From Tribonema minus (lineage: Eukaryota; Sar; Xanthophyceae; Tribonematales; Tribonemataceae): 64,000 nucleotides of DNA. The notes below the pieces were generated by a model that was not told the origin of the DNA, made no database searches, and was given only the letters and a program-made list of their open reading frames with translations. Position 1 is the first letter of the stretch; each line of letters starts with the position of its first letter. Below are positions 3,120 to 41,879 of this stretch, one piece after another. The stretch spans positions 62,001-126,000 of the forward strand of contig JAFCMP010000101.1 of NCBI GenBank assembly GCA_017506865.1, given 5' to 3'. The position numbers and the translations under genes are program-made.

Positions 3120-3375
3120 AGCGCTCCGCACGCGAGCGCGTGGTCAAAGTCGGCGGGACACGAGATGCCGTACTGACTGGAGCATTGCCGCAATCAGAGC
3201 CGAAGCAGCAGCAAGCAGCCGTCTTTACTGACGGCGACTGGCAGCGCGCAGAACAATGAACGCGCCTACCGCCGGAGCACTGCGTCCGTTGCGGCGGCAG
3301 CAGCAGAAGCTGTGGCAGTAGCCGCTGCGGGCCGCGCTCCCCACGCGAGCACGTGGTCAAAGTCGACATCACGCA
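3120..3375 (-). repeat. Two degenerate copies of the pseudouridine synthase terminal-exon coding end
   Basis: The segment of the last exon encoding CPADFDHALA (about 3455-3505) recurs at about 3120-3190 and 3338-3375, downstream of the stop codon on the minus strand. The farther copy can still be read as ISCPADFDHALACGALPPL. This shows that the duplication also affects the 3' coding end of a terminal exon. Confidence 0.7.
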
Positions 3376-3397
3376 TAGCAAGGGCCGCCTGGAAGAG

Positions 3398-6300
3398 CTA
3401 TGTGCCTGCCGCTGCCGCTGCCGCTGCTGCTGCGGGCGGCAGCAGCGGCTGCACTGCGCCCGCGAGCGCGTGGTCAAAGTCAGCGGGGCACGAGATGTCA
3501 TACGTGACGGACGGCAGCGGCAGCGTCAGGCGCGCGGCGTGCAGGAACATGCGGTACGCGATGGCGTCGTCGGCGTATGTCGCGTCGCCGACCTGAAAAA
3601 AAAAAGTGAAAAACAAGCAAAAGGAAAGAAAAAAAAGTGAAAACTGGGTGGGCAGATATAAAAAGTGAAAACGGGCAGCACAGATAACGGGGGCGCAGCA
3701 CACGCGCAGGGGATCGGTGCGCTCGGCGATGGGAAATGCTGAACTTTAACGCTGAATCTCAGTGCCATCCAGGCTGCGGATAGGATACTATGCTGATGCC
3801 GTGCCTCCAATGCATGTCAGATTTGCTGGCTCTAAAGTGCAACACAACTGTTGAAGCACACCAGCTACTGTAGCTCACTTCATATCTTGTGCATCCTCAC
3901 ATTAGGGTACCACACTTTGTGTGGTCATCTCAGCAGTCCGCAGCACGGACGCAGCAGCACACTCGCTACCAGCCACTGATGTTAACAGCACCATCATGCG
4001 ATCCTCTCACTTCAAGGTCACCGTGGCAACACTCCTGTGCTCATCAAGCTAATGAAACCGCCATTCACGCAAACACAGATCTGACCCGCTTTGTTTAATG
4101 CGCAGAAACGGTGAGACTCACGATGGGGAACAGGCGCGCAGAGTGTCAACTTTGTTCAATGTGTTTGGAGTACAGAGGCAGTAGCGACAGCTCTCTGCAG
4201 TAGACACGCAGCTGGTGCCTGCTGCCGTGCATCATCGTCAATGACAGCGGCCAGACGCCCTCTTTGGTGAAGTTCAAAAAAGAATTGCAATACAGTGAAG
4301 CTCTCATGCACGGACGCGCAGACAGACCTCCAAGTTCGGTGCGGTGCGCCCAGACGCTGCAACTCACAATAGAGTACTGTAGCGGCTTGCTTCGGAAGCG
4401 CACTGGAGCCGCTGGCCGCTCACCGGCCATAACAGCTAGGATGTCCCAGCTTGCAGTGGACGCGCAGCTGGCGCCGCCGCCCATTCAGTAGCCGCAGCAG
4501 CAGCAACAAATCAGCATGGTAAGCCTCTCAATATGTGCCCAGCAACAACTTCAACTCACAAACTTCAACCATCAGCAACACTTCAACTCACGATAGGGTG
4601 GCCCAGCAGCTTGCAGTGGACGCGCAGCTGGTGCCGCCGGCCGCTGGACGGCCGCAGTAGCAGCGAAGGCGACAGAGCAGCAACGAGAAGCCTTTAACTT
4701 CAACTCACAACCTTTCACCAAAGAAAACTTGCAACTCACGATGGGGTGCCCCAGCAGCTTGCAGTGGACGCGCAGCTGGTGCTGCCGCCCGCTGGACGGC
4801 TGCAGCAGCAGCGAAGGCGACAGAGCAGCAACGAGAAGCCTTTAACTTCAACTCACAAACTTCAACCATCAGCAACACTTGAGCTCACGATGGGGTGCCC
4901 CAGCAGCTTGCAGTGGACGCGCAGCTGGTGGCGCCGCCCGCTGGACGGCCGCAGCAGCAGCAGCGCCGCGCGCTCCCCCTTCCGCGGGTGCCCCTGGAGA
5001 GCGAGCGTCCCCCTGCGCAGCACGGTGACGGCGGTCGCTGACGCTTTCCCCTGGCCATCCTCCCCCACCGCCATGCTGTGAAGTGAAAGGGGAAGCCATG
5101 AATGTTTGAGAGCTGTCTAGACTTGTCTGTGCTCAATGGAAAGAGGGATGCGCGGTGACGGCAGTCGCTGACGCTTTCCCCTGGCCATGCTTCCGTACCG
5201 CCATGCTGTGAAGTGGGAGGGGGAGAGCATGAGTGTCGGTTCGTGCTGGGTGTAAAGAGGGGGACAAGAGGAGCGCTGCCTGCCGAATTGTGATGCAGCG
5301 CAGAATTGTGATGCAGGAGGATTGAAAAAAGCAAATGTCCGCACTGGTCTGTGCTATGTTCTAGCGGATGATGAGGACAACGGCGGCTGTCGATTACCGT
5401 TGAGCAACACACACATGAGATACCATGGCATGTTGCTTTGCGTGTTGCCATGCCCCCCAAATGCCGGGGGGGGGGGGGGGGGGGGGTTGAAGGGGAAACA
5501 GCGCTGGTGCATGAACACATTGTTGCTATTGCAGCGGCACACTCAGCTGTTTCGGACCGCCTTGTGTCAGCATGAAAGGGGAGGAAAGTGCACGAGTTGA
5601 AGTTGGGAGGTAATGTGCAGCTTGCGATCAGCACAAAAGGAAACAAATCTGTTGTGAAGGGTGGCGAGCTAAGCTTTCTTCAGGAAAATTCAGGGCAGAG
5701 GACGCCAATAGTCCTCTATTAGGGTTAGGGTTAGCAATACCCTGTGGACAGTAATGACACGAATACCATATACTTCTAGAAGGGAATGGATTGGATTGCT
5801 GCTGCGTTACGTAACGGCCCCTACCCATACACACTGTGTGACATTATCGAACACTTTCAAGTACAACAACTGATGGTCGGCCTGCCGCTTCGGAGTGTTT
5901 GTGCATGAAGCACTTGTCAGCAGGCGTGCTTCAAAATGACATAACTCACAGAACTTCAACTCATCATTGAAGTAGCATGTACCTGAAGCCTTCCTCTCAT
6001 CAACTTCAACTCAATATTGAAGATGGTATGCACCTGAAGCCTTCCGTTGCGTCGATCGCCGCGTCAACTTCAACATTGTCCCACTCCGGCCACCCATACA
6101 CCACCGCCATGTACTGCTTTTTCGCCAGGCGGTCACGGAACAGGCGTGCGCAGGCGCCCGCCGCCTCGCGCGTTTTGCCAACGACCAATATGCCGCTGGT
6201 GGCGAAATCTAACTGGTGGCAGAACCTGTGAACCTGAGCAGAGGCGATTGACAAAGTCAGGTGCTTGAGATCGCAAGAAGTTGCAACAAGACAAATGTTC

Positions 6301-9300
6301 TTTTGATTGTGGTGTGCTTCAGCGTGTGACAGTATTGCCGGGGCCCGCCACCTCACGCGTTTTGCCAATGACTCATGTGCCGCTGGTGGCAAAATCCAAC
6401 TGATGGCAGAATCTGTGCACCTGAGCACAGGAGGCGAATATCAAGCACTCTGTGCTCAAACGCGCAACAAGACAAGAGCATCTATGGAACCCCGCTGTGG
6501 TTGCACGCTTCAGCACGTGACAGTATTGGCCCTAACCCTAACCCTAACCCTAGCGCCCGTTGGTTGTCTTGCAAGCGAGGTTCGCCAATCATGAATGAGC
6601 CGCTCATGGCAATATCCAGCTTGTGGCGGGACCTGTGCGGCGAGCATACGCATCAAACATCAAGCAAATCGTACTTTTACCCAACATATGCAGTACAGTA
6701 CCCGCACAATGCATCATACCAACGTACCCACCTGCATTTCAGGCCTGTGCTCCATGATCATCGCCAGTTGTCGTATGCTGTTGTGGTGAGCCGTGTCGTG
6801 CGGCACATGCACGCTCGTTTGAAATCGATACACAACATACTATACTAGACATATGTACAACCGCATCATACATTCGTACCCACCTGCATTTCAGGCCTGT
6901 GCTCCATGAGCCAGCTCAGGCAGCATCGCTCTGAAGGCGCGCGAATGCGCACAAACGGCAGTGGCACACAGAAGCAGTCGTCCAATCAGACATTGATGTA
7001 GTGGCACAGCGGCACTGGAAGAAGGCGTGCAGGTTTGACTTCACAACACGAATTTGCCTCGTTGATCACGTCACTGTACTACTTCAACTTCAGCAGTACT
7101 TCCAATCAGTTTTGTGGGTTCAAGACGCACAACGGCTGTTGGAGGCAGCGAGAATGGTAGAATCGGCGGGCTCGTACATTCGTTCATGAATACATTCATG
7201 CATTCATTCATGACGCCAGCGGCACCCAAACAGCTATTGGTGAAATCATGAAAGCGGACACGTACTTCAAAGTACACACCTACATATACATAAGCGCATC
7301 TGTAGAGCGCACGTGGTCTTGATGTAGCTTCAACTCCCCACTCAGTAGACTCCACCTTTGACTCACTAAGTTCAACGAGCTGGGGTGACGCACAGATCCC
7401 ACGAGCACCACTAGGCCAGAGCGTGCGCACACATTACTACCGCCATAGCAAGAACAACTGATTCTGATCGCACACGCAGTCCACCTTGAAGTTCATGCAA
7501 CCGGCACGCACCTCCCGCGAACCCGGGGGTGCTTTTCTTGACGAAGTTGAGCTTTGTGTCGAACGGCTTGTTGAAGATCAAGTAACTGTCATCCTCCAGC
7601 ACCACGCCGAATTGCTGCTCCAGGAAGCGCGGCTGATACACGAGCAGATCGCGCGCTTCTTGAGGTTTGCACGCGCCCACCAACTTCAAGAACCCCACGT
7701 ACGCCAGTCGGCACGCGAGCGCCTGCGCAGTGACATGACGTGATATGGTTCAGGTGATGGAGTTCGTTGCGATCGCACGTGTAATGTTGTCGCAGTTTGC
7801 CAAAATGACTTGTAAAAATAGTCATGTGGTTTGCTGCGCCCACCAACTTCAAGAACCCCAGACGGAATACGCCAGTCGGCACGCGAGCGCCTGCGACGGC
7901 CCCACACAGGATGAGCATCATCGATGCCGATGAGCATCATTGGCCACGGGACCACGGCAAAACACGCTGCGGTGTTGTTTGAACGTGTTCGGGCGATGGA
8001 GTGTGCTGTCATCGTACTGTGCACTTTGAAGTAACGTTAGCTATAGATAGTCTGCCACAATGAACTCTGAAGTCGTCACGTGGTTTGCACGCGCCCGACA
8101 CCTTTGATGACCCCAGGTAAGCCAACAAGCACGCGAGCACCTGCGCAAGACTACGCTTTGAGCATCATCGACACCATCATGACTGTCAGCACTGCTCAGG
8201 CGACCTGAGCACTTATAGGAACACCCACTAGGTATGGTTCAGCACAGCAGTTAGACGATAGACGATGTGGGTAGTAGTTGTGGTAAGATGAGAAGTTGTT
8301 TTACATTGCCGTGTGCCTAATTCAAGCCATCGTGCGATTTGCATGCGCCATCAACCTCAACTGAGTCAGTCATTGGCGAGCAGCAGTCGTGGACAAACCA
8401 TCTGAATTGCAGGAGGCTAATGCAGCCCCCCAACTACGCTTTGTATCCCAGAGATGGGGCAGCCAGGGTGTGAAGGCAGGGACAGAGCCAGTGACTGTGA
8501 TCACCGCGCAGCTGTGAATTTGGCGTTGTCATGTTGCCGTGTGCATCGTCAAGTACCTTGCTACCGTCTGAACCTTGGGTTCCCAACTCTGACTTCCGCA
8601 AGCAGATACCAAATGCCGACCGCATATGCGGTGGTGCAACAGCTCCTACAAACAGAAAACCACAAGTGTTGTGCTGCCATCTGAGCCTTCGGTCCGGCAC
8701 TCGACTTCAGCACGCAGTCATGTAGGGTTAGGGTTAGGGTTAGGTGCAAATGCCTGCCTGTACGCGCAGTACTGAAACAGGTCCTGCACACACATTATAC
8801 TTTACAATTGAATGATGATACGCGTGCAAGTCATGGCCAGCAAGGCTGGACATAGGCTGTGCTGCTTGTGCGAGCATTGTGTGACTTTGGTAGTGCGCAC
8901 TGGTGGTCGAATCGTCACAGCAGGCATGAAGTCAACTGCCAGTCACGTACTGTTCACAAATGTATACCTACATGACAGGAATGTATGCGCATAGACCTTG
9001 CACAATAATTGAGCCAAAAAGCAAGTCTGAACCTGAAGCCATCAGTGAGCGTTTTTTTTTGTTGCCATCACTTTATTACCACCCAATGCATAATTATTGA
9101 AATTGCGTGGGGATGATGCGGCTAATCGGGATCGAAACATGAAACACTTTGCGCGTGCATGCACCGCGCATGGATGGACCTGCAAGCGGCCTGGTTGGAG
9201 TCGCAAGCGATCTGCTTGAAGTTGAATGCGCCATGCGCACCCACTGTGGGCTGCAGGGCGTGCTAGACGCTGCGCAGTCAGCGCTCGATGCCAACACGCA

Positions 9301-11571: not shown

Positions 11572-11579
11572 TCGCCTTG

Positions 11580-13480: not shown

Positions 13481-14294
13481 GTACCATTTCATGCTCGGCC
13501 TGGTTGACTGCCACCATTTGGCCCGCAAATGCACGTTTCAATGGGCTGCTGAAGACTGCATTGCAGAATCATCAGCATCTTCATACAGGCAAAGTAACAC
13601 ACTGAAGACGGGCAGAATTGATCAATGCAGCTGTTCGTACATTTTATCGCAGCAGCGAGTCACCGGGCACGTTGCGACAGCGCTCTCAGTATGCACTGAT
13701 TTAGCCACGGAAAAACAACAGGCACAACATCTGCCCGCTGTAACTGTCGGCAGTTACACCTTCACATGTCGAGCGCTGCCCCGTGCGCACCGCACTGGCA
13801 CACACGTGCATACAGCAGCGCCGTTCTTAGACGTCAGTGCGCCGCTGCAGCGTCGCCGTGCGCGGCTGCAGCGTCGCCGTGCGCGGCGGCGGCGGCAGCG
13901 TACACGAGGCACTCCAGTGCCCTTGTTCCGCATGGCCTGCTACTGCAGGCGCCATTGTCGGCTATAGAGAAGCTGGAATTGCGATTCCGCCTCCACTGGA
14001 TGTCCTCGCATCGCTGAGCACTGCCCGCTCGTGCTGCTGCGGCCGAGCGCGCGCACGCGTCCACAGCCACGGTGCGCTGCGCTGCTGCTGCCGCGCGCTG
14101 CTGCTGCAGCGCTGCTGCTGAGCACTGCGCTCGAGCCTCCGCGCCGTGCACCACCAGCGCTTATTGCGCGATGGCTGCCTCGGCTGCCTCGCCGCGACCG
14201 CCTACGCTTCACGGCGGCCCCCACGACATCAACAGCCCCCCCGCTGCTCCAGCCTGCAACTTCAACTCTGACCTGAACTCTCTGTCGTCTCCTC

Positions 14295-14445
14295 CGCGGC
14301 AGCGCTCACAGGGGCAGGATGCCCCCCACGACATCGACCCCCCCGCTGCTCTGAAGGCCCATTCTCAACTCCAACCTGAACTAGGGCATAGCCTCCGCGG
14401 CAGCGCTCGCGGGGGCAGGAAGCGGCATCCCAGCAGCTCCTGGCC
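14295..14445 (-). repeat. Two copies of the PSMD9 coding end downstream of its stop
   Basis: The PSMD9 3' end (GGCTGCCACATCCTGCCCCT then TGAGCGCTG, about 14505-14545) is echoed at about 14302-14325 and 14400-14440 on the minus strand. The copies keep the GCGCTCACAGGGGCAGGA-like signature seen on the plus strand. The units alternate with CAACTTCAACTC-type filler. This is a second case of a terminal coding end being copied downstream. Confidence 0.65.
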
Positions 14446-14514
14446 CCTGCTGCTCCAAAGCTCCAACTTCAACTCCAACCTCAACAAGGCCGCAGCCCTC
14501 CGCGGCAGCAGCGC

Positions 14515-17512: not shown

Positions 17513-17779
17513 GCTCCGCACTCTGTCGCAATCCGGTCAAGTTGAAGTGCAGCCAGCCAGTCGCTCGTTGAAGTGCGGAACGAAAATGACGGCATTCCGT
17601 ATGTGAGCCTGGCTGGCGATGCTTCGGCCTTCACCTCGTCCACATCGTGAATGCCATTGGCCCTTTCTTCAAAGCAAGGTTAGTACGAGCGCAAGGCTTG
17701 AGCACCTTGCGACCCTCTGTGCCCTTGAGGTCCCAAGGCCCTCGTTCACCTTTTGCTGGCGCTCTCTTGAACCGCAGGA
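17513..17779. promoter_or_regulatory. Short divergent region with possible 5' exon of the SDR gene
   Basis: PSMD9 and the first SDR gene start head to head, 267 bp apart. Inside it, ATG at 17651 opens MPLALSSKQ. It is followed by a GTTAGT donor near 17689 and an acceptor CAG ending at 17777, which would join in phase to the SDR start. This could be a short first coding exon or a 5'-UTR intron. No core promoter motif was identified. Confidence 0.35.
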
Positions 17780-23625: not shown

Positions 23626-24081
23626 ATTGTTGGTAATGCAATGGTGTGTGCCACCACCGCGGCAAAAAAAACACACACCCCCACCTTCAGTTGACGTTGA
23701 AGTTAAAGGTTTTGGAAACACTCGAGTTCCCGACGCCGACGGTGCGACGAAGCCAGCTTTAGAGGTGCGTAGGCAGGCCTGATTGCTGAATCTGCTAGAT
23801 CTCAGCGTTAAGTGCTGTGCTTTATCAGCATGAGTGACGAGCTAACAGAAGTACGCGTGAGGCCGCAAACGGGTTTGAAACTAGGGACATAGTTTGTGCC
23901 GCGCTTTTGGGCTGGCGATGCTGGCCTCTCCCTACTTCTGCATCATGATATATCAGTCGTCGTCGTGACACGAACCTTCAGCCTAGTACGTGCGCTGGAC
24001 ACCTGGACGCAGCTTGCGCATGGGTAGAAATGATCGCTCACATCCCACTCACCTTTGCTGGCGCTCTCTTGCACTGCAGGG

Positions 24082-27750: not shown

Positions 27751-27759
27751 TAACGTGCA

Positions 27760-30700
27760 ATGGTCACGACAACGGGTCGGTTGGTGTTCGGGGGCTCTGG
27801 CCCGGCTGAGCAGCAAGACGATGATGATAAGCTGCAGCAGCTGGCGAAAGAGGAAGGAAACAGGAGCAAAGCCGTGGCGGAGCTGCTCAGCACGGAGAAA
27901 ACATTCGTGTCTGAGATGACGGTGAGGGTCTTCGCCAGACACGCAACTGACAAAAGTTCACCATGGAGCAGTGTATCGTGCTCAAGCTAGTGTGTGCAGT
28001 GCCCTGCTTTACAGCAAGTAACGTCACCGCAATGCGTTCCTCACTTGTGCTTTTCAAAATGCTGTACAGAAGGAAAGGACACTCGATTCTTCACAACTTC
28101 TCTGGTACTGCGTGTAACTTTCGTTTCGCTGCCCTCTTCAGTAGAAAACGAAATCTGTATTGAATTCAGAAGTGCAGCCAAATCGTTCAAGCGATGACGC
28201 GATCTGTTATGGACATTGCTAGGCGCTCCAGCGCACCACTTGTGCAGCGTACCACAAGTGGAATCAGTTGCACGCAGCGCATGATTGTCAAATGTCGCCT
28301 CTGCTGGAAGAGAACCACTGATTGAAGTTTCCGTATAATATGGCGAGATACACATACGCAAATGCCGTGCTTCGCTGTTGTGCATGAAACGGGCACAACA
28401 AATTTGGCCGCGCCTGCGAACAGAGTTGCTCCATGCCTGACAGCTCCAGTTTCGTATCAGACGTTCGTGTCGAAGCCACCATGATGCTGTCGTTGGCCGC
28501 CATGACACGCAACGAAGCCCTCGCAAGTTCCGTTCACACAAAACATTATGCTGGCATGACACGCAATGAAGATGTTTCCAGCTCCGTTCTCAGTACGCTG
28601 ACATGACGCGCAATACATACCTCAAAAGTTCTATACGCAGGAAACGGTGAAACTGACGCTCGGTAACGGCCAATCTACACCCTTCAGTAGCCGGAGCTGC
28701 AAATGCCTGTTCCACATAGCTGCTGCGAGGTTGCGTTCTCGCTGTTGCACTGCCGTTTCAGCTTGCTCCGCCAGGCTTGCGTGTAGATCTTGAGTTATAC
28801 CCCCCTATGGTCGTCGATTGAGGTCTGAGCCGTGTTATATGTGGAGGTTGTTGTCCCGGTGTGTGTGGGGGGGGGGGAGGGGGGGTAATCACCACGCTGG
28901 TCGTATCTCATGCGCTTGACGCAGCTTGCTGGGGTCAAACGCGTTGCACCATGGGCGAGCCAGAGGATGCTGCCGACTGCTGTCTCACATTAGAGCTGCA
29001 ACATTGCACTAGCACGCCAGAAGCAGACAGTTCCAAGTCACTGCAGCTGCCGCTCCAGCGCGCCGGATGACCATTTTGGTGCTGCTGCAGATCGGCCTCC
29101 TGCCGCATCACCTGATAGTACTCGCAAGGAACCTGCGCGCCCCACCTGAAGCTTGATGCCGGTACTTGAACTTCGCAAGCTTCAACAAGGCTGGTTACGG
29201 CCCCCATGTCACGCTGCAGACGCGGCTTGCACCTCTCATCTGCTGCTGCAGGGCCTTCTGCTGCTGCAGGGCCTTCTGCTGCTGCGCGCAGCCGATTCTA
29301 TGTGCAGAGGCACACAACCACCGCTGCTGCTCGCCATGTCTCTCACAGAAGCGCGCGCATGAGTGAGGGCATGTATGCATCCAGTTCACGTGACAGTGCT
29401 CAACATCGCGCACACGTCTCTGTCTCGCAGCTGCTGGTGGAGGTCTTTCTGGAGCCGCTAAGGCGCTATGGCGCGGAGCTCGCTGCGGAGGCGGAGGCTG
29501 CAGCGGAAGACAGGGCTGATGCCGGCAAGGCGCGCTTGGCCGTTACGCCAGAGGACCTGACTGTTATATTCAGCAATGTGGAGCAGCTGCTGGGCTTCAA
29601 CAGGTGCGGGGGACTTGACCATCATGTATATTCAGCAACCTGGATCAGGTGCTGGGTTTCAAGAGGTGCGTGAGGCGTTCACCATTATATTCAGCAATGT
29701 GGAACAGCTTCTGGGCTTCAACAGAAGCGCAAGGACTTGACCAATTTGAATATTCAGCAATGGGGAGCAGCTGCTGGGCTTCAACAGGTGCACGCGCGCG
29801 CGCGTGCGCGTATGATGATATGAGTTGAAGTACATCTTGAAGTATGCAGCATGTGGAGCTGCTGGACTTTGACAGGTCGACGCGTGTAGTGCTGCCATCG
29901 CCTGGCACCTCAGCCTGGTGCTGGGTTTAGGCAGGTATTCGTGTGCAGCTTCAACAAGCCGTGGAGCATCACCATGGCAGCAGCGGCACGCTGCGGTCAG
30001 TCAGCTGTGCGGTGATAGGGTTAGGGTTAGCGTGTGAGGTAGGTTCAACAGGCGGTCAGTGCCCGCACATCAGCGCCTCAGCTGAGTGTGCTTGCCCATA
30101 TGTAGATGGGCGGGGTCGGGGGGGTAGATGTCACGGGGGTGCGGCAGGTTCAACCAGGCATGCGCGAGCGCGCGCGCGGCGGTCAGTGCCCGCACATCAG
30201 TGCTCAGACCAGCGCCTTAGCCGGGTGTGCTTGCGCATGTGTGACATGGTTACGTTGCGTGCAACTTGCAGAAGAGCGGAGCGTCAGCGGCACAGCTGCG
30301 GAGGTTCATTGTGCTGTGCGGCGATTGTGCACGTGTTGGAGTCTAAAGCGCCCATGTTAGTGAAGTGCACGTAGCAACAGGGGCCAGGTTAGTGTTGCGG
30401 TAGCAACAGGCTAGGGTTATGTCAGGTTACAGTTCAGCTTTAGTAAATGATAAGGCATGCGCGTCACTGGAGCCGTCGCGCCTTAACGCTTCCAACTGTG
30501 GTTGGTGCGGCAGGCAATGCGCACCAAGCTGAGCACTGGTGCAGCTGTTGCAGTGGCTTCAATGCAACAAAATTGCAACTCGATCACGTCTATCAGATGT
30601 ATTGGACATATGCAATGACACTGCAGGGTCGCTTGCCAACATTGGTAGCCGGCGTGACCTTTGGGTTAGGGTTAGGGTTAGGGTTACGGTCAGGGTTAGG

Positions 30701-33700
30701 GTTAGTACCCCTATGGCTGATGCACGGCCGCTTCCTGACTTCAGCAGGCGGTGCTGAAGATCAGTGTATGACTTCTATATAATTGGGCAGCTCAACATAC
30801 CTGAAGTATCAGCAGTCAGGCCCAGGTGTAGGGACTGTTGTGGAGGCACAGAGAAGGGGGTGGTGTGTCCTTGCTGCAAGCAGGAAACAGAGGTGCATAC
30901 ATGCGAAGGCTGCCTGAGCATACCAAGTATGATCACCCGACGCTGACATGGTGTAGTATCTGCTCCTACTATGAAACACCAGGTCCAAGGAGTAAATTTG
31001 CGCGCCTGTGCGCCTTCAGCCGTCTCATTTGTTGCACCATTTGGTGATGGCACAGGTCATTTCTGGCGCATTGCACTTGTATGCTGACGGCACAGGTCAT
31101 TTCTGAGTACATATGCGGGCTTGAACGCCTTCAGCAACCTCATGTATTGCACTGCTATGCTGACGGCGCAGGTCGTTTCTGGCGGATCTGGAGGCTGCCA
31201 TGGCGGCGGGGGGCCAGGGGGCGGTGGTTGAAGTTTTCCTCAAGGCCGCGCCGTTCATGCGCATGTTCAGCGTCTACGTCAACAACTTCGACAGAGCCAG
31301 GTGAGCCATTCACGATGATGAATCATCATGACGAATGATGCGTTTACTGCGGATGTCACAATGCATGAGATGTTTTGGGAAAATAAAAACAAGGAACACG
31401 GTGAAGAACACGATGAAATCCGCAGTACTTGATTCGACGCTTGGCCTGGGGCCATGGGGATAGGTTAGGGGAGGGTAGGGAAACGAAGGGGGGGGGGGGG
31501 GGGGACAAAGCGCGTGTGTTTGGTCATGTCCTTCGTACGCATCGCCAGGATGCTTTGTCGTCAATGCGCGTCACAAGGGAAAGATTGCACTGCCTCTGTT
31601 GTGCGTTTTGCACTTTGGAGAAGCAGCGAGGGGCAACGCTCATGCAGGCGCTCGATCGCCAACACGACACGACAAAGCACGAGTAGTCAGCAGGGGCGTG
31701 CGGCTGGCAGCGACGCTCCGCGCGCCGTCATACTGATACCTGCCTAGCATGCCTGAGCGACGCTGACCCTAAGCCCGCTGCGCACTTCACCTTACTACTA
31801 CAGCTTCAAACATCTGACTGCGTAGAGGAGGGTGCTGTGGCAGCGCTCCGCACACAGCTGCTCGCGCTCATCGCTCACTCACACCTGACGCTTCATGTCT
31901 GTGTAGAAGTTCAGAAGAAGGTTCAAAAGCTCAGCTCCCCGCCCCCCATCCCCCCCCCCCAGTCCACCCCGCATACGCCTCCGCAGCGACCTACAGTACC
32001 TCCGTTCTACCCGCAGCCGAAGGGACATTGTGTACTGCCATTACAATACCCGCTGTGTAGGCACCCCCATCTGCTGCCATCCTGGTCTCAGGCGCACTAT
32101 TTGGCATTAAAAAGGTCAAATGTGACTCTGCCCCTTCCTCTAACCCTAACCCTAGACTCAACGCACCATGCACAGGGAAGCGCTGGCAGCGCTCCAAGCC
32201 TTGGCGTTCAAAGTTCAACCATGATGCTGGCCCTATTCCAACCCCTAACCCTGACCTTACAGCCTCGGCATTCAATGTTCAAATGTGACGCTGGCCCTAA
32301 TTCAACCCTAACCCCAACTCTACCATGTGCAGGGAAGCGCTGGCAGCGCTACGCACGCGGCCACTGACTTTGTTTCTCCCTGGTGTGCAACTGCCACTGC
32401 AAAAGCCGCCCAGCCTGCCATCCCGGTGCCAGGCGCAGACCTGGCGTTGAAACTGCAATTGATTCTGACCTTGATCGGAACTTCAATCTACCATGTGCAG
32501 GGAAGCGCTGGCAGCGCTCAGGACGCGGCCACAGGCGCACGCGTTCCGCATGCAAAGTTCACCTGTGACGCTGGCCTTACTTCAACCCTAACCCTGCTTT
32601 GCGCAGGGAAGCGCTGGCAGCGCTCAGAACGCGGCCACAGGCGCACGCGTTCTTACGCGCTTGCGAGGGACAGCGCGCATGCCGAGGGCACACCCTACCG
32701 GACTTTCTCATACAGCCGGTGCAGCGCATACCGCGGTACAGGTGCGGTTCACTTGCAGTACAGCTGCAGTTCATGCGTGTGGTACATTTGCAGTTCACGC
32801 CATGGGCTCACCCTCCCCCACTTCATTATTCAGCCAGTGCAGCGCATACCGCGGTACAGGTGCGGTTCACATGAAGTGCAGCTGCGGTTCATGCGTGGTA
32901 CATTTGAAGTTCATGACGCAGGCAGACCCTGCTGCTTTTCGCGGTACAGGTGCGGTCCACACAGAGTACAGCTCCAGTCCATGCATGACACTATGTGTAG
33001 CTCACAGCACCATGGCATTTGTGTAATCCGTGGACCTGAAATGGCAGTGGCGATGCCAGTGTGCAGCGCCTACTGCGGCACAGTTGAGGTCTACGTGCAG
33101 TACAGCTGCAGCTAATGTATAGTACATTTGCAGTTCATGTCGATATACGTACACATGTACTTTTTGCCGCGGACCCCCTGCCAGACATCCCCATCCAGCT
33201 CAAATTAACCTAACCTCACTCATCGCAGGCTCCTCTTGGAGACGATATTGAAGTACACGCCAGCCGAAGACGCGCTGCAACCACAGGGTCCATCTCCTAA
33301 CTTCGATTTACCCTGATTCTGACTGCAGGCTTCTCTCAGATACAGCGTGCAACGACGCTTCAGCTGAGCGTTGCAACCGCTGAGTGAACTTTGTCTCACT
33401 CCAATGAACCGCGACCGTGATCCTCAAACGCAGGCTCCTCTTGGAGACGATATTGAAGTACACGCCGGCCGAAGATGCGCTGCAACCGCGGTTGAAGGAG
33501 GCCCTGGTGGAGGTGTCACAGGTGGCCACAAAGATCAACAAGGACGTGCACACGCGCGAGGCTCAGGACAAGATGCTGCAGCTGCAGGTGCAGTGCTCAA
33601 CTCATGTACTTCTACTTTGAAGTACACGATGAGCAATTATTAAGCATGTGAAGTATCACTCAGCTTTTGGGTGAGAAGCGTGCGCAGTATCCCCCTGCAA

Positions 33701-36700
33701 GATGCTGCAGCTGCAGGCACAGTGCTCAACTCATGCACTCCGAAGTACACAATAAGCACGTGGAAGTTTCATTCAGCTTGTGCAAGCATTTGAAGTGTTA
33801 TCCAGCTTGTGGATGAGAAGTGTGTGCAGTATCCCCCTGCGAGATGCTGCAGCTGCAGGTGCGGTGCTCAACTCATATGGAAACGAAACGAAAGTTCGTG
33901 AAGCTCTAGGTGACAAGGTGTGGTTGGCCGTCAAGTTGAATGGCTTCCACCAATAATCACGTGCTTCGGCGCACTCGAGAAGCATGTGAAGTACCAGCAG
34001 GAGCGTCAACTGAAACTTGAAGTTGACCAACTGAGCGAGACCTCGTCGCTTGTTTCATGGCGCAGCATGCTTGGCTCAAGCTGCAAACTGCAGCCTTCCG
34101 TTTTGCCTGATGCCCAGATGCTCTATGTTGGTTGGGGAACGCATCAATTTATGAAATCACATGCACACTTGTTGGCGGCAATCATCGGCTTGTTCAATCC
34201 GTCAAGCGTGTTGTCATGACAGCGGTTGTAGTAACGATGGTAATGGCAATAGGAGACCATGTTCAGCGCCTCAGGGTTAAAGCCAGTGAATAACTCTGGG
34301 CTCAGGGGCAGGGGTAGGGTTAGGGTCAGCGAATTCATGTTCAGCTCCAGACTGCAGCTACCGCACCAATTCGCAAGAGCGGTCTTGTTGATGACTGCTG
34401 ATCGCTTGCATTGCTGCCACCGTTGCTACCATCCATGCTCATGTCTCTCTGCTGCCACATGCGTGCTACTACTCATCACCATGTCAGGCGGAGTTTGGTG
34501 CGCAAGACTTCCTGGAGCCCGGCCGGCAGTTTGTGCTGGAGGGCGACCTTATTAAGGTGAGTCAGGCACCACTTAAGGTTAGGGTTAGGATTAGGGTTGG
34601 GTTAAAAGAACATGCCTTTGGTGCTGCAAAAAAGTGTGTGTGTGTGGCGGGGACATTTCGGCCACCTCAGGGTTACGCTTAGAATTAGGGTTAGAGGGTC
34701 TTCCACCAGGCCGTGTTCCTGCCAGGCCGGTGTGTGCGTGTGTGTGTGGGTGAACGGGGGCAAGAACGATGCCAGTCGACAGAATGAGGGGTCTTCCTTC
34801 TGCTTGTATGGGGTATGTATGCTTGTATGGGATACTCAAGGTCGTTCCAAAACTCAAGGTCGTTCCAAAACGGTCATTGCTCTGGTCCATATACCGCTAG
34901 ACCTAGCAGTAGACGTAGGCGGTAGACCTAGAAGTACACGCTGCAGTGTGGGTGCACGGGCGTCTGCAGTGGTGCGCTTTGTGACATGCACGTGCAGACA
35001 GTGCCGTGACGCAAACGCTAGCCCTAGCCCTGCGTCTTGCGCACACCTGCCCATTTGACTCCAGCCGCGTGCGCAGACGCTAGCCCTAACCCTAGGTATG
35101 ATGCATACCTACCCGTTACGCAGATCACGCGCGGCAGCCGCAAAGAGCACAACTTTGTCCGCGTTATCATGAATCTTCCTACTGGGAACTGGCATCGTAC
35201 AACATGCAACGGCATTCACGCATCGGCATTTACACATTAATGGCTGAGACACCCAGCAGGCATGTGCAGTAAGCGCCGTCCCCCCCCCCCCCAATCCCTC
35301 ACTTCAACCCTCATCCTAGGTCCTGAGCGGTGACGCAAGCCCTACAGTACCTCAAACCTAACCCTACCTCCTGAGCCGTGACACAAAAGCGAGCCCCAAC
35401 CCTAGGTCTGATGCAAACTTACCCACCTACCCTCCAACCAATGCACGCGCAGATCACGCGCAGCGGCCGCAAGGAGCGCATGTTTGTGCTCTTCAGCGAC
35501 GAAGCTGGTGTACAGCGAAGCGAAAGGGCTACCCTAACCCTAACCCTAGGTCTGATTTGTACGTACCTACATACCCCCCAATCTTGCATGCAGATCACAC
35601 GCGGCGGCCGCAAAGAGCACAAGTTCGTGCTCTTCAATGACAAGCTCGTCTATGGCGAAGAGAAAGGCCTACTCATGCGCCGCACGGGCATGTTTGCCAA
35701 CGTCGTCAGCGGCAACACCAAGCGCCAGTACCGCAAGGCCTACGACTTCCCCCTGAGCAGGGGGCTGTACGTGGTCAACGACGTGGGGGGTGCGTATGCC
35801 AGCGCGCGTAGCGGGGGAGGGGGCGGGGGGGCAGCGGAGGGGGTTTTGGGGGACACGGGCTTCATGTTCATCACGCCGGATAAGAGTTTTGTCGTGCACG
35901 CTGCGTCGCCTGCGGAGAAGGACGCGTGGGTGCAGGTGCGTCATGGCGGCAATTATGCAGTTGGCAGTTATGTGGCAGTTACCACGTGGCGTCGCCCATG
36001 CAGTTGCGTGGGTGCAGGTGCAGTTCGCATCCGGCAGTTACATGGCAGTTGCACAATTTGTTTTCGATACTTCTATTAGAATGCGGGGCAAGCTTTGTCG
36101 CGCACGCGGCGTCACACGCGGAAAATTATGCGTGGGCAGTTACATGGCAGTTACACATTACGACGCCGGACAAGAGCTTTGTCTTGCATGCTGCGTCACC
36201 TGCTGAAAAGGATGCGCGGGTTCAGGCGCGTACCAACGGCTGTTACGCAAACAGCAGTTACATGGCAGTTGCACAGAATTCATGATCCACGGCAGGAGCT
36301 GCGTGGTGCATGTGGCGTCGCCTGACCGGCGCGTGCGCGGGCGGCGTCAGTCGCGCCGTTGGCCGTCACAGAGCAGTTGCGCAGTCTGCATGGTCAGGAG
36401 AGGTTTCGTGGTTCACGTGCTGTCGCTAGCGGAGAAGCTGAGAGGCACGAATGGCAGCTACACAAACGGCAGTTACGCAGTTTGCCACACTGCTCAGCAT
36501 CAGAAGGGTCTCTGTGCAACGCGGCTCGAAAACCCCTAGGGTTAGGCTTAGGGTTAGGGTTAGGATTAGGGTTAGGGTTAAGGTTAACCCTAACCCCAAG
36601 ACATCCATCACTGTACTCGCAACTTCCAGTTCCATGGAGGATGAAGAGGCTCACAAGCACGGCGCAAGTGAACAGTGAACATGCTGCTGTTGTTCAGCAT

Positions 36701-39700
36701 GCAGCGCGCATTGCAGTTCTGCCTTGCTGCGCTCTTGAGGCTAAAGTAAGGGCTAACCTAACCCTAACACTAATGGAAACGAATCAAACGATCGTAGAGC
36801 CGTAGGAGTTAAGGAGTGGTTAGCCGCAAGTGCCTTCCACCAATGATCCTAACCCTAACCCTATCCCTCTTCTCAATGTGTGCAGGCATTACGACGCGTG
36901 ATGGCTGACCTGACGGCCAAGGGTGACTCGCGCGCGCTCAAGGTCGACATGGATCTGTCAGACAAGGTGCGCTTATTAGCAGGTCATCATTGCTGGTGTG
37001 CCGTGCGCATCATCGATTCTGATTCAGGTGGCTATTAGTCTGTTTCTGAAATAGCCATTGATATATGCACAGGGTAGAGTCAGACACGGGCCATGAGTCG
37101 CTGAGATCAGCCACTGCGGCGCGTGCAATACAAACACTTTTCGACAACTCACAATCTTTGATTCGAAGAAACATTGATCTATCGGACAGCGTGGGACCGT
37201 TGCCATGCATGCAAAATCTGACCGGGCTGGCATTCAGGCTCCGCATTGACATTGACATCGCATTCGCGTTATGCTCACGTCAGCAGCTGGTGTGTCACAC
37301 CACCCGCGCCTCTTGCTCAAGTGATGGCTGGGCATGAGAAATCTGGGCACAATACCCTGCAAGTGCGCTCTTCCGGCGCGTAAACTCCCAAATAATTGAC
37401 ACCTGAACCCCCTCCCCCCCCTTCAACTCAGGTCAAGCCCACCAAAAGCGGCAAGTCCATATTGCGCGGTTTCAACCCCCCCCTCCCCCCCCCTCCCCCC
37501 CTCCCCTTCCCTTCTCTTTTCATCTCAGGTCAAGCCCGCCAAAAGCGGCAAATCCACATTGCGCGCCCTCACCAACTTGCAATGAATTGACCCCCCCCTC
37601 CCCTCCCCTTTTCTTCTCTTTTCAACTCAGGTCAAGCCCGCCAAAAGCGGCAAATCCATAAGCTGCGACATCTTCGTCTGGGTGATTCGCGACGGGAAGA
37701 CCATGCGCCAGGGGTTCTCCCTCCCCCCGTCCGCCCTGTCCGCCCCCTTTGGCGTCCTCTCGTACAGCGAGCTGGTCCAGAGGGGGGCGCAAGTGGACCC
37801 CTCCCCCACCCGCGCTGGCCTTCCTGATGACGATCTAGGGTTCGGTCTGGAGTGGGATGCGCCCCCCGCACTTCAACTTGAGGTGAGCGGTGCCATGTCA
37901 GGGTTAGGGTTAGTTTTTTTTTAGTGTGCGCACTTGCACGTACGTGTCGGGGTTAGAGTTAGGGTCAGGCCAAGCGCTCCGTTGCTTTGAACGGCAACGC
38001 ATTACAGCAGTTATTGTTTGGTGTGTTGTTGTTGTGTGGCGTCGCAGCATGGTAAACAGAGTGCGCCACACGCTGCTGGCACCTTGCGCTGTTGCTGATT
38101 TGCATGCTCACCTGCACTCCGAGCGATGCCACAAGGTGAGCTTGACATGCTCGTAGCATCAATTTGATGTTGACCACTGTAGCCATGCATTTCTTTCTTC
38201 ATCAATCCTGTTTCTTGGTTTTTGTTGCCTCTGCATCAGGTGCTACCGGACCCCTTCGACGATGACTACGATGACCCCCTCGGGGGGTCACGACTTCAAG
38301 TTGAAGTTTCCCTTCAACCGGGCGACCGGCTGGGACTGCGCCTGCGGGATATACAGGGGGGCGGCGTGCTGGTGATGGGGTTCATCACCAGGGGGTGCGC
38401 TGCGCAGGTGCGTCAGCTTTGAAGTTTACAGTTGCTTATGTACTCGAAGTACATGCTTTGAGGCTATACGGATGCAAATGCGATGTGATGTACTTACTCA
38501 TGGTGCGCATACAGTATGTGAGGCATGTGCCATCATTGTATGTTGTACACGTTTTTACATCCCTCGGCAGTAGCCCATTATCAATGTGGGGTGTGCTGCG
38601 CAGGTGCATACTCGTCAGCGGTCTGTCAGCGGCACAAGTCTTCTTCAGCACGGTTTAGTTTTGACACTTTTCTGATCTTGCTGCATCCGTTCAACTGGTT
38701 CCAGCCCATGGAGCCACTGCATTTTTGAAAGGGATCTGCCTATTGAGACGAGTACCTCACACCAGGGCAGTTTGACGCGACGCTTGCAACAGCCCTTTGA
38801 GTCGACTAAAGGCTGTTCTCAGCTCAGTGCTGTAGCAATAACAATTTTTCATTGTTGTATAAAAATGCCCGTACCAGTCACTTCATGCCCGAATGTGTGC
38901 GCTCAGCACAGCAACACATCACTCCTGCTCATTGCAACATCAACTTCAACTTATTTTTGCACATCGCTGGCTGTTGCCACAGCGACCTGGTCACTTCTGC
39001 CTCATGCGCATACATACGGCTGGACCAAGCACAGCACACGCTCACTTCACCAGTGACTTCAACTCCTTCGTGCGCAGGTTGCTGGCGTCTGCCAAGGCGA
39101 CCGAGTCACCCATATCGACGGCACTGGACCGCTATTATCAGCAGCAGAGGCGGCGGCCGCAGCAGCAGCAGCGCTCGACCGCTGCGGCGGTGGGGGAGTA
39201 TTGAAGTTGACGCTCCGCAGGGGGTTCGCGCTGCTCTCTGCGGGGGGCGCTGCGCCGCTGGCGCTGACGGGCGGCATGAGCTCTGTGGGCTCGCATGCTG
39301 CCACGCCTCCACGTGAGTAATGCACTCATGCTTTGTAATTGATTCATGCTGCGCAATTAATGCGGTGGAAGTCATTACGAAGCTTCCTCAGGCCTGGTGC
39401 TTCAGGTGCGTGAAGGGCTGAGCACAGGTCGCTAGCAAATGTCTGCTGCAACTGCTGTGATCGCTGATGTGCGTGTGCGCACATCAGATATCGGAGATAA
39501 GCACAGGAGCGCACCACAAGTGTAGTGCAGCGCATGAGTTCATGCTTTGCAGTTCATACATTAGAGCATGGTCTCTGGAAACAATGAGGCTTTGTCAGGC
39601 CTGGTACTTCACGTCAGCATCAGCAGTTGGCAGACAGCAAACCTTTGTACAAGCAAACGAGCATACCACATGCGTACTGCAGCGCGCTCTCGCAAGTACT

Positions 39701-41879
39701 CGTGTGTACCGCTGATGTACCGCATGTGTACTGTCCCTGTCCCGTGTCCCCGCCGTCCTCAGCAACCCCGCACAGCCCCAGCCACACCGCATCGCGCGCC
39801 GGCAGCACCGGCTGTTACAGCAGCAACGGCACCACAGGCAGCCCCAGTGGCCTCGGCACAAGCGGATTTGGCGCAAGAGCGCCGCCGCCGCTGCCGCCGC
39901 CGCTGTCGCCGCGGCCAGCAGCAGCAGCGCCGCCGCCGCCGCCGCCAGTCATGGTGTCGCGCACACAGCTGCCGGCGCCGCCGAGTCCTCCTTCGGTGGG
40001 TGTTTGTGGGTGGCATATGTGCGGTTTGCTTGTGGAAGTGGTGCGCTGTGTGTGCACAATGTGCTTGTTGTAACGTGCTTTGTAACCGCCAGCCACGAGC
40101 TGTCTCTGGCTGAGCAGAGCTGTCCCGATCCTGCTGTAACAGACAGTTGCAGCAGGTCACGCACCCCAGTGGCACCGCAGTTGAGTAATCGCGCCACATG
40201 CTCGCATGCACGCGTCGTGCTGCATGCACGCCGCTGCTGTGCCGCCTTTGGACAACAGCTCACGGAGACGCAAAGACGAGCTGCCCGCATGAGCCACTTG
40301 CCGCTGAGTTGAAAAGTACACAACGTCGTGACTGTTGATGCCACCGCAGCATAGGGCACAGCAGCAACGGGAGAACCTCCGCAGTTATCTGCTCTACTGC
40401 CACCTTTCTGCCACAATTCTGCCCCATCACTGGCATCAAATCACTTTATGTGCTGTCTGCTGTTGCCATTCCGCCACGTTTCGCCGCAATTCCGCAACGG
40501 CAGGTGCGGGAGCTTAGCGCCATGTTCCAGCAGGTTTCGCCGCCGCCGCTGCCGCCGCTGCCAATGCACCGCAGCGCCAGTTCGACGGTCACGCCAATGC
40601 AGCCGCCGCCAATACCGCCGCGCGTGCGGCCCATGAGCGTAAACTATGCGGAGGGTATAGCAGCACTGCAGGTTAGCATACCCTACGTACCCATACCACC
40701 AGTAACACCAAACCGTTACTATGTTGTTACCCTGCATGCCCTCGCCACTGCAATACCGGATCGTTGGCATATCGTTGCGCTTGCGGTTTGACACGGCCGC
40801 TGTGGTCGCGTGTGTGACTTCTGATGGTGATCGGGCGCAAAAGCGCTGCAGTGCACTGCGCCCATTGTGTGCCCACAGCGCAGCAGCGGCAGGGGTGCAT
40901 GATGGCGAGATCAGTCAATCCCTCGGTGTGCGCCCAGGTGTCGTCGATGCAACGCATCTACAGAGTTGCTTGTATTGACAAAATGCGTTGTATTGACAGC
41001 ACCTGGGCGCATAACCCTATGTAGCAGTTTCAGAATGTCTTCCATCATGTCAGATATAATCCCAAGGGGGTTTGCACTGGTTTTAGGAAGAAGTTGTACA
41101 TGCTTGCTGAAATTTGAAACAAATCCATGTCTTGGTGTCTTTGTTACTTTGCGCCTAGAGCAAGCTCACTGTCGGGAATATGTGCATCATCGTTCCATCG
41201 CGCCATCTTGTTGCACGCTCAGCAGCAAGTCTGATAAGCACTGCTGCTCTTGCTGTGCAAATGCAGAGCAAGGTGTAGCCCAGCACACTGCACACACGAA
41301 GGGACTTTCTCAAGACATGAGAGAGAGGAAAGCGGCACAACGAGGAAGCAGCCATTGCAGCGTTGGCAGGAGCAGCAGCTGCAGCAGCAGCCTGAGCGAC
41401 ACCAGCTGCAGCAGCTGCGGCGGCGGCACCAGCAGCAGCGGCTGCGGCGGCACCGGCAGCAGCAGCTGCGGCGGCACCGTCAGCAGCAGCAGCAACAGCA
41501 GCAGCTGAGAAGCACTGCAAATGTTGTTTGCAGCAGGGCGGGCCTGCAGGCCGCCCGCAGCAGCTGCAGTGCTCAACAGCAGCGACACAGCGCGCAGGTA
41601 GCACAGTCACTCTGCACCTCCCATGTCACAGCGCTCCACAAGCAGCGCCGGTGCGCGTGCGCAAGCTCCACCGCAACTAGCACCTGGCTAGCACACGAAG
41701 CCTTAAACGAGTGGCACTCATGCACGCACACCCGCGTTGGCCAAGGAGCTTGGGCCCACTCAAAGTGTCAGACATGGCAGGCTTGCGCCGATTGCGCAGG
41801 CAACGCACGCACGCGCGCCATTGTCATGGAGCGCACTGGTCCCATGCTGCTGCGGCGCGATAGCGCAGCAATGAAGTAG
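27760..41879 (+). CDS. RhoGEF with DH, PH and PDZ domains, fourteen exons
   Basis: Exons: 27760-27921, 29431-29603, 31172-31300, 32607-32741, 33434-33587, 34488-34556, 35594-35935, 36886-36966, 37631-37882, 38240-38407, 39078-39312, 39763-39995, 40504-40671, 41361-41879. Phases agree throughout, giving 939 residues. The DH domain (about 35-250) has KAVAELLSTEKTFVSEM, IFSNVEQLLGFNRSFLADLE, LPDFLIQPVQRIPRYRLLLE and VATKINKDVHTREAQDKMLQ, the strongest family signature. The PH domain (about 260-415) has GRQFVLEGDLIK, HKFVLFNDKLVY and EKDAWVQ. A PDZ domain (about 510-610) has GDRLGLRLRD, VAGVCQGDRVTHIDG and GGVLKLTLRR. A Pro-rich and then Gln-rich tail follows. DH-PH proteins load GTP onto Rho-family GTPases at membranes. 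ATG 27760 follows an in-frame TAA. The last exon is the least certain. Confidence 0.88.
29625..29880 (+). repeat. Four exon-end/donor echoes of RhoGEF exon 2
   Basis: Exon 2 ends at 29603 with codons for IFSNVEQLLGFN and CAG|GTGCG. Copies end at 29665, 29724, 29787 and 29875 (steps about 62, 59, 63 and 88 bp). Three keep an AG|GT junction. The sequence decays with distance. Confidence 0.9.
30660..30706 (+). repeat. Interstitial TTAGGG array
   Basis: About seven TTAGGG-like units in RhoGEF intron 2. Further short tracts occur at about 30015, 32145, 32245, 32310, 34315, 34580, 35085, 35530, 36757, 36850, 37903 and 56810-56880. Confidence 0.9.
31040..31110 (+). repeat. Two acceptor/exon-start echoes of RhoGEF exon 3
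   Basis: The true start at 31172 (GGCGCAG, then GTCGTTTCTGGCG) is preceded by copies of GGCACAGGTCATTTCTG at about 31050 and 31090, each with the neighbouring TGATGGCACAG or TGACGGCACAG acceptor context. They diverge after 10-15 exon bases. Confidence 0.75.
32160..32560 (+). repeat. Three acceptor/exon-start echoes of RhoGEF exon 4
   Basis: Exon 4 starts at 32607 (GCGCAG, then GGAAGCGCTGGCAGCGCTC). Copies begin at 32501, 32333 and 32176. The nearest extends about 45 bp (through CGGCCACAGGCGCACGCGTT) before diverging. A weak fourth copy may lie near 31832. CCCTAA tracts sit between units. Confidence 0.9.
32825..33085 (+). repeat. Exon-end/donor echoes of RhoGEF exon 4
   Basis: The exon 4 end (QPVQRIPRYR, CGGTACAG|GTGCGG, ends 32741) is copied ending at 32859 (118 bp away) and 32949 (90 bp further), with a decayed form around 33060-33080. 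The copies retain the donor and the following GTGCGGTTCAC intron sequence. Confidence 0.9.
33221..33375 (+). repeat. Acceptor/exon-start echoes of RhoGEF exon 5
   Basis: A copy of the exon 5 start with CGCAG acceptor begins at 33229. It matches the true exon (33434) for about 58 bp, encoding LLLETILKYTPAEDALQP, then diverges. A second decayed copy starts near 33329 (TGCAGGCTTCTCTCAG). The first is long enough to be a cryptic exon. Confidence 0.9.
33690..33880 (+). repeat. Two exon-end/donor echoes of RhoGEF exon 5
   Basis: The exon 5 end (AAGATGCTGCAGCTGCAG|GTGC, ends 33587) is repeated ending at 33715 and 33858. It carries the same downstream GTGCTCAACTCAT intron sequence and intervening AGCTT...GAGAAG...GTATCCCCCTGC units. 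The middle copy has GC in place of the donor GT. Confidence 0.9.
35115..35525 (+). repeat. Two acceptor/exon-start echoes of RhoGEF exon 7 (PH domain)
   Basis: The true start is 35594 (GCAG, then codons for ITRGGRKEHKFVLFNDKLVY). Copies start at 35124 and 35453. The second covers about 65 bp and still encodes ITRSGRKERMFVLFSDE before going out of frame. It could act as an alternative PH exon start. Confidence 0.88.
36075..36450 (+). repeat. Exon-end echoes of RhoGEF exon 7
   Basis: The exon 7 end encoding TPDKSFVVHAASPAEKDAWVQ-like sequence (ends 35935) is copied around 36158-36225 (TPDKSFVLHAASPAEKDARVQ-like). More decayed copies lie near 36084-36120, 36285-36330 and 36400-36445. GGCAGTTACATGGCAGTT filler recurs between units. 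Confidence 0.85.
36536..36600 (+). repeat. Interstitial TTAGGG array with flanking CCCTAA
   Basis: About eight TTAGGG-like units are followed by CCTAACCCCAA in inverted orientation, inside a RhoGEF intron. Confidence 0.9.
37170..37196 (+). repeat. Probable exon-end echo of RhoGEF exon 8
   Basis: GATCTATCGGACAGCGTGGG resembles the exon 8 end GATCTGTCAGACAAG|GTGCG (ends 36966), about 215 bp downstream. Confidence 0.5.
37420..37575 (+). repeat. Two acceptor/exon-start echoes of RhoGEF exon 9
   Basis: Exon 9 starts at 37631 (CTCAG, then GTCAAGCCCGCCAAAAGCGG). Copies with the same pyrimidine tract and acceptor start at 37529 and 37432 (steps 102 and 97 bp). Each matches for about 40 bp, then diverges at ATTGCGCG. 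Confidence 0.92.
38588..38612 (+). repeat. Exon-end/donor echo of RhoGEF exon 10
   Basis: GGGTGTGCTGCGCAG|GTGCAT repeats the exon 10 end GGGTGCGCTGCGCAG|GTGCGT (ends 38407), about 195 bp downstream. Confidence 0.7.
40929..41011. repeat. Short hairpin element, copy A
   Basis: TGCGCCCAGGTG and CACCTGGGCGCA form a perfect 12-bp inverted repeat. The left arm and the adjoining TGTCGTCGA match the element at 60627, so this is a dispersed MITE-like hairpin. Confidence 0.7.

Follow-up and report, generated by a model that had tools for sequence, protein, structure and literature searches.

The cause of long introns is still debated, with transposons a frequent answer, and one part of the Tribonema minus genome poses the question in another form: why should introns contain tandem pieces of the exons beside them? 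Within the window analysed here, the 64,000 nucleotides from base 62001 to base 126000 of contig C101 (the assembly comprises 158 Mb in 554 contigs), three unrelated genes, for a pseudouridine synthase, PSMD9 and a RhoGEF protein, carry partial copies of their exon ends in the adjoining introns or 3' flanks. These copies are termed echoes. The phenomenon is non-random and is tied to predicted exon edges across a sample of the genome. The reading argued for below, to which a probability of about 0.65 is assigned, is that tandem duplications across coding edges are hidden by splicing and are maintained since the exon serves as a protected template.

Exon-edge echoes in three genes

The window was compared with itself by BLAST, and local direct-repeat pairs were retained at E ≤ 1e-3 and a distance below 1500 bp. 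Sixty-nine such pairs were found, 60 of them starting below 42 kb, and 59 of these 60 fall inside the three named genes or a short way downstream of them, where they sit at exon edges as read from homology and open frame. First-order Markov shuffles, one for each of seven window pieces, gave no repeat pair. The self-comparison and the empty shuffles confirm the exon-edge echoes that a first-pass annotation, made from the letters alone, had described in all three genes. The site-specific spacings that it listed are likewise present, at about 62 bp (29551-29791), 97-102 bp (37422-37660), 148-149 bp (4584-5017) and 177-204 bp (14676-15707). Its description of the echoes as copies of splice junctions holds for the junctions but is too narrow, because two genes, those for the pseudouridine synthase and PSMD9, also have echoes of their stop-codon ends. 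With two of the three genes echoed at their stop codons, the rule is therefore one of coding edges and not of splice sites alone.

The copy next to the exon body had been taken as the one joined in the message, and this agrees with the NCBI T. minus models P0001 (PSMD9) and P0018 (RhoGEF), and with the EukProt transcript protein P0002 at PSMD9 exon 3; use of the body-proximal copy is supported by these gene models and the one transcript protein. The PSMD9 protein assembled from exons 17512-17286, 16390-16060 and 14763-14515 is 100% identical to P0001 (JKP88DRAFT_34996) over 66% of the query; between the RhoGEF protein and P0018 the identity is likewise 100%, over 56%. The pseudouridine synthase family was assigned from matches carrying PF00849. 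No T. minus protein was found for it among the matches listed (120 of 359), and its splicing is for that reason based here on open frame and homology.

That the arrays are an artefact of assembly can practically be dismissed. Tandem arrays are in general difficult to assemble, and nothing further was found to favour this explanation; paired copies in the three genes show 68-98% identity, which makes them too unlike for mis-joined reads, and an echo is also found in the independently assembled P0002.

Enrichment at exon ends beyond the window

Two samples extend the analysis. A genome sample consists of 17 stretches on 17 contigs (about 160 kb), at coordinates hand-picked blind to content, and the AAA sample consists of 19 loci (about 62 kb) returned by an AAA-domain search, the domain being the sole selection criterion. 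Locus L001, which is part of the window, was excluded before counting, and the AAA loci L020 and L027 overlap by about 0.5 kb that holds no cluster. A further locus, L038 (contig C157), which contains a helicase exon with donor echoes, was chosen because repeated matches showed there in an earlier listing. It was excluded from the cluster counts, the exon-end frequency counts and both rate samples, and included in the codon-change, alignment, side and dinucleotide, and patch-sharing analyses, to which it contributes 34 of 410 echo-lineage changes and one of seven arrays.

To call exons, we trained a codon-usage model on the window plus the 17 stretches and then refined the ends of the exons it gave; most of the exon ends counted are predictions of this model, not mapped junctions. 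At its threshold 127 segments were called in real sequence and 2 in one shuffle. Seven proteins from the sampled stretches were checked against Pfam: five match known families (M1 aminopeptidase, sigma factor, SAP, lipase and SNF2) and two match none, and an eighth, from the window, matches RhoGEF. Some predicted exons are doubtful, for example one at 14039-14359 of the window (plus strand), which lies antisense to the PSMD9 flank. The codon-model exons with refined ends took the place of those from a home-made spliced gene finder, which predicted too many small exons.

For a cluster of repeats to be scored as edge-type, one of its copies had to share 15 bp or more with an exon, and the other less than half as much with the same exon. 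Among 48 clusters in the sampled loci, 25 are edge-type, 2 lie inside exons and 21 are neither (null edge mean 13.5, maximum 23 in 1000 placements; p ≤ 0.001), and the 43 clusters of the AAA loci divide into 32, 0 and 11 (null mean 21.4, maximum 31 in 1000; p ≤ 0.001). The window itself has 14 edge-type clusters, 1 inside and 12 neither, out of 27 (null mean 6.9). The comparison with random placement that the first-pass annotation had called for thus gives an excess at predicted exon ends in both the 17 sampled and the 19 AAA loci. A simple count of clusters touching an exon agrees, with 33/48 in the sampled loci (null 17.6, maximum 30 of 2000) and, against a null of 27.6, with 35/43 in the AAA loci, a count reached in 18 of 2000 null placements. 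An earlier test of exon-end coverage by circular shifts found 36 of 178 ends covered in the sampled loci (null mean 20.5, maximum 38) and 17 of 74 in the window (null 9.2, maximum 21), and is weak because long arrays make shifts of whole clusters conservative.

Could survival and notice alone produce such counts? Duplications born at an even rate, lost within exons and merely better noticed at edges would be in keeping with echoes that are largely neutral, with stop-codon ends that are echoed as well, and with the small number of clusters inside exons (2/48 and 0/43), though these are no fewer than the null. The size of the excess argues otherwise. A rate model, in which non-edge clusters per non-coding base are scaled to exon ends, expects 3.3 edge clusters in the sampled loci and 5.4 in the AAA loci, an excess of 7.5- and 6.0-fold, and a conserved exon copy altered detectability 0.98-1.61-fold in simulation. 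With a recognition advantage of at most 1.61-fold, about 4-fold of the 6-7.5-fold excess remains. Duplications cover 12.6% of intron interiors in the sampled loci, 3.6% once exon-touching arrays are set aside, and 2.8% of strand-switch or intergenic gaps, which likewise speaks against even birth with better notice at edges. This explanation, although it deserves some weight, is considered unlikely.

The impression that nearly every junction is echoed in some genes does not carry over to the genome sample, in which about a quarter of exon ends have an echo on the outer side (87/378, the window included). In RhoGEF 9 of 15 junctions are echoed. By class of end, echoes accompany 32/105 donor-like, 20/114 acceptor-like, 15/64 other right and 17/75 other left ends. 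Stop-like ends, with 3/20, are too few for comparison with donors, and two of the three apparently are echo segments called as exons. Under a strict junction test, requiring 12 bp of the copy on both sides, 6/31 acceptors and 10/41 donors pass in the sampled loci (16/72 in total), as do 4/15 acceptors and 4/12 donors in the window (8/27). The rule that acceptor echoes lie upstream of the exon and donor echoes downstream holds in 21/21 and 50/52 cases (window, 36 sampled and AAA loci, and L038), and follows in part from the definition, by which an echo must fall outside the exon.

Sequence evidence on function

By codon position, the mismatch between exon and echo is 0.115 (first), 0.106 (second) and 0.192 (third), and in the intron part of 52 exon-echo pairs (an overlapping set, with both copies free) it is 0.201, figures that together suggest roughly one constrained and one free lineage. 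Unit lengths modulo 3 are distributed 25/28/18 and keep no frame. The donor GT is intact in 39/49 echoes and the acceptor AG in 18/19, other intronic dinucleotides (both copies free) are intact at 0.59, and with one lineage free to change we put the neutral expectation, by our own estimate, at about 0.77-0.79. Set against that estimate, donors look neutral and acceptors slightly over-retained. The 410 changes assigned to echo lineages comprise 239 that alter an amino acid, 167 that are synonymous and 4 that make a stop.

The first-pass annotation had offered buffering of splice sites and a source of alternative exons as possible roles, and selection for reserve sites or extra exons would account for the retained acceptor AG, for the third-position excess described below, and for the deficit of amino-acid-changing and stop-making changes. 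The acceptor figure and the share of amino-acid-changing changes (58%, against 72% by opportunity) amount to weak evidence for function. A further point in its favour is that the echo of PSMD9 exon 2 is present in P0002, residues 1-94 of which match 16498-16217 at 87%. The echo is read there in a frame other than that of the exon, one in which the window carries two stops; what the read-through does indicate is that echoes are transcribed and that, in one case or more, an assembled transcript has kept one. With 239 of 410 changes altering an amino acid, GT retention near the neutral estimate and no preserved frame, a selected role is unsupported so far and is judged improbable. From their sequences the echoes look largely like neutral leftovers that are removed by splicing, and some past coding constraint may have acted on certain of them.

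Persistence of edge arrays and the proposed explanation

Distant copies decay, as had been noticed at the outset: changes at codon positions 1 and 2 of echo lineages number 54/877 in the nearest echo, 72/882 in the second and 95/948 in the third and beyond. Third positions show 189 changes where 104 are expected after matching for base and CpG context (95% interval of the ratio 1.49-2.23; 33 arrays). This excess was first read as coding constraint; base matching and the alignment of L038 favour old exon states, though some constraint may also have acted. At L038, where the echoes contain about 80 of the 151 exon bases, several third-position states common to the older echoes are missing from the exon, which agrees with echo 1 along one part of the alignment and with echo 2 along another. 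Such patchy sharing extends to the seven arrays with enough informative sites, in which these sites cluster by partner (42/70 adjacent pairs versus 30.4 when shuffled, p = 0.0005). The simplest reading would be that the exon gave rise to its echoes on separate occasions, or has overwritten parts of them. Compared with other clusters (window, L038 and in-exon clusters excluded), edge clusters are more often multi-pair (35/57 versus 9/32, p = 0.004), and their divergence outside exons is slightly higher (0.219 versus 0.179, p = 0.03), as expected if a protected template prolongs the life of an array.

The process proposed would begin with small tandem duplications, mostly with units of 80-200 bp, arising in genes. 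Those straddling the edge of a coding exon would be tolerated, as splicing (or termination at a stop codon) would use the copy attached to the exon body; the product would be unchanged and the spare copy would turn into intron or 3' flank. The spare copy would then drift largely freely. The exon copy, held constant by selection, would keep acting as a template, and further duplication, unequal exchange or gene conversion could re-copy the exon edge. Edge arrays would in this way outlive and outgrow purely intronic duplications, and introns would gain length from the exon side outward. The molecular route may have been slippage, unequal exchange or conversion. The process of intron growth that the first-pass annotation had envisaged fits the data; that the net effect is growth we infer. 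A more far-reaching version, in which exons are protected master templates that re-seed their own edges into introns by concerted evolution, leaving introns as a record of past synonymous states, is tentative, and our opinion of it leans slightly toward doubt.

Exon ends might instead be hot spots of duplication, through R-loops, base-composition steps, splicing-coupled breaks or repair from complementary DNA. The excess at exon ends would be expected from such a boundary-directed mechanism, and three echoes of 95-97% identity (for example 33224-33282) end almost at the exon edge, which copying from an exon-only template would produce. Edge arrays exceed other arrays in age and size, as longer survival predicts, and many units extend well into the intron; both points tell against a mechanism directed to boundaries, which is regarded as quite unlikely.

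Several results weigh against a protected template as the explanation of edge arrays. The three echoes just mentioned belong to 10 of 52 exon-echo alignments with at most 5 columns outside the exon, and alignments that stop at the exon edge are not predicted by plain tandem duplication; conversion limited to the part still similar, or an exon-only template, would explain them. Enrichment in the window taken by itself is less secure, as the null there reached a maximum of 16 against the 14 observed (p ≤ 0.003), whole-array placement nulls give less than a 2-fold excess in two of the three sets, and the 6-7.5-fold figure depends on the rate model. Window intron interiors, with exon-touching arrays set aside, are 5.8% covered by duplications versus 1.1% of gaps, unlike the sampled loci, where the two values are close. 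Exon interiors hold no fewer clusters than the null predicts (2 versus 1.4 in the sampled loci, 0 versus 2.1 in the AAA loci), and purging within exons is therefore an assumption. The intact acceptor AG in all but one of the 19 echoes is one more such point, as is the opportunity for change, which at 72%/25%/2.7% for amino-acid-changing, synonymous and stop-making changes differs from what was observed. The third-position excess, finally, is seen in the nearest echo too (55/417), so that a strict order in which the newest is the nearest fails and room is left for past coding constraint.

Duplication anchored on a selected exon would be an alternative source of intron length, and one that is datable copy by copy. 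Echoes may preserve older synonymous states of an exon beside the living one, and they constitute a natural test of how the spliceosome chooses among near-identical competing sites. It should also be emphasized that exon-like pieces filling introns could mislead gene prediction.

Arrays in the three genes and neighbouring features

The last exon of the pseudouridine synthase gene (minus strand), at 3398-3592 by open frame and PF00849 matches, has its acceptor at 3592 and ends in a stop codon at 3398. Because the exon ends in a stop and not in a donor, the two echoes beyond it (3275-3364 and 3111-3173, within 3111-3364) copy a coding end; the second is 86% identical over 63 bp to 3441-3503, and the first was aligned against 3395-3481. 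Further upstream in the gene, the exon with GRRHQLRVHCKLLGHPI (4889-5075), placed by open frame and homology, is followed by donor echoes at 4354-4812, with a period of about 149 bp in the nearer copies, and preceded by an acceptor echo at 5150-5236 (86% to 5020-5105). Open frame and homology also place the exon with HRFCHQLDFATSG (6034-6233), which has acceptor echoes at 6337-6431 and 6575-6637 (85% and 71%; together 6337-6637) and a donor echo at 5952-5994 (86% to 6002-6045). A donor echo at 6711-6757, 94% identical to 6863-6909, belongs to a probable small exon ending at 6884 that was read by eye. The exon at 7512-7722, again from open frame and homology, has acceptor echoes at 7822-7895 and 8082-8147 (88% and 79%; together 7822-8147).

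PSMD9 (minus strand) has its first exon at 17286-17512, and intron 1 has a donor of the GC type (GCAAGC) at the 17286 end, as judged from the protein match. Exon 2, at 16060-16390 by homology and open frame, has an acceptor echo at 16425-16502 (82%), the one that also lies within P0002. Exon 3, at 14515-14763, contains the PDZ end, extends to the stop codon and is joined to exon 2 in both P0001 and P0002. Its acceptor echoes, at 14866-15876, comprise five copies and a shorter one (15805-15876) at a spacing of 177-204 bp. Echoes of its stop-codon end occupy the 3' flank at 14218-14446, with a spacing of about 105 bp and 73% identity over 236 columns. The PSMD9 echoes contain about 90 of 249 exon bases.

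In the RhoGEF gene (plus strand), the exon at 29431-29603, from homology and open frame, is followed by donor echoes at 29613-29791 with a spacing of about 62 bp, and the exon starting at 31172 is preceded by acceptor echoes at 30990-31105 (76% and 89%). Echoes known from self-BLAST pairs flank exon 32607-32741 on both sides (acceptor 32139-32532, donor 32837-33142), and likewise exon 35594-35935 (acceptor 35059-35532, donor 36091-36270). Exon 33434-33587 has an acceptor echo at 33224-33282, 97% identical over 59 bp with similarity ending about 5 bp outside the exon, and donor echoes from self-BLAST pairs at 33698-33876. Acceptor echoes of the exon starting at 37631, again from self-BLAST pairs, lie at 37422-37556.

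No local duplication pair starts between 16311 and 29550 in the window self-BLAST. This stretch contains two NmrA-like reductase genes, at 17771-18862 and 24034-24948 (plus strand), both apparently intronless. Very young tandem duplications touching no predicted exon are found at 42775-42895 (100% at 60 bp) and 43275-43554 (96% at about 148 bp). A phosphatidylserine decarboxylase-like gene (PF12588, PF02666) lies at 49486-50520 on the plus strand, and a reverse transcriptase open reading frame (PF00078) at 52578-53657 on the minus strand.

Telomere-type units are scattered in the introns: 50 CCCTAA and 58 TTAGGG were counted in 120 introns, taken as same-strand exon gaps in the window and the sampled loci. 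The last 60 bp before the next exon hold 5 CCCTAA and 0 TTAGGG, and CTAAC might act as a branch point. Elsewhere in the assembly, family matches with equal scores and reading-frame lengths recur on contigs C90/C179, C144/C223/C278, C112, C21 and C359. The recurring frames, judged from tables only, are helicases of 1560-1572 amino acids and kinases of 631 amino acids, and might reflect giant-virus regions of endogenous kind, recent duplications or haplotigs.

Comparison with known systems

Among open-licence PubMed Central papers no report was found of a genome with its exon edges echoed in this manner, nor a paper devoted to the T. minus genome. In the RdRp gene of potato a tandem duplication over an intron-exon boundary created a new intron (PMC4974935). 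The unit there, too, comprises an intron end and an exon start, arranged in tandem with its splicing signals carried along, and units spanning an existing boundary are likewise found here (25/48 and 32/43 clusters at predicted exon ends, and the PSMD9 and L038 alignments). The potato case is one event in one gene and yielded a new intron, whereas here many genes hold multi-copy arrays and existing introns are apparently lengthened.

Rogers-type intron gain proceeds from duplicated AGGT-containing segments, and Drosophila cases are among those described (PMC2891723). As here, the duplication is made invisible in the mRNA through splicing; it starts within exons and makes introns, whereas in T. 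minus existing coding edges are straddled and introns apparently lengthened. The mechanism is thus on record in other organisms, and 7 of 9 donors used as seeds read AG|GT. For the echoes to be remnants of such births is nonetheless highly improbable, as those of the window carry intron sequence and one existing edge and lie inside larger introns (e.g., 9860-7722). No intron bounded by two copies was noticed among the mapped window echoes, intron and unit lengths not having been compared.

Other systems share single features. In human tandem-repeat genes such as polyubiquitin, with dual-specific AGGT sites, the repeated units also bear splice signals (PMC10809524); the repeat in those genes belongs to the coding sequence and each intron spans a whole number of units, whereas the copies described here look non-coding. 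The arrays of 90-bp exons in Tetrahymena, in which unequal exchange builds arrays of exon-plus-intron units, are similar in kind (PMC6564038), but consist of whole coding exons, mostly in one gene family, and not of parts of exons from unrelated genes. Intron borders also bear direct repeats close to splice sites (PMC11782384); they are 4-30 bp long and pair the two ends of an intron, whereas echoes are longer copies of one end. Tandem duplication of cassette exons copies a complete exon with both splice sites, which is not what the aligned PSMD9 and L038 arrays contain. Mobile introns of the introner type disperse the same sequence to many loci; the PSMD9 array, the one array searched, matched the genome once, at its own site, in a search that skips very common words. 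Single boundary-crossing duplications are already known; a genome-wide habit of echoing exon edges has no counterpart in the open-licence papers searched.

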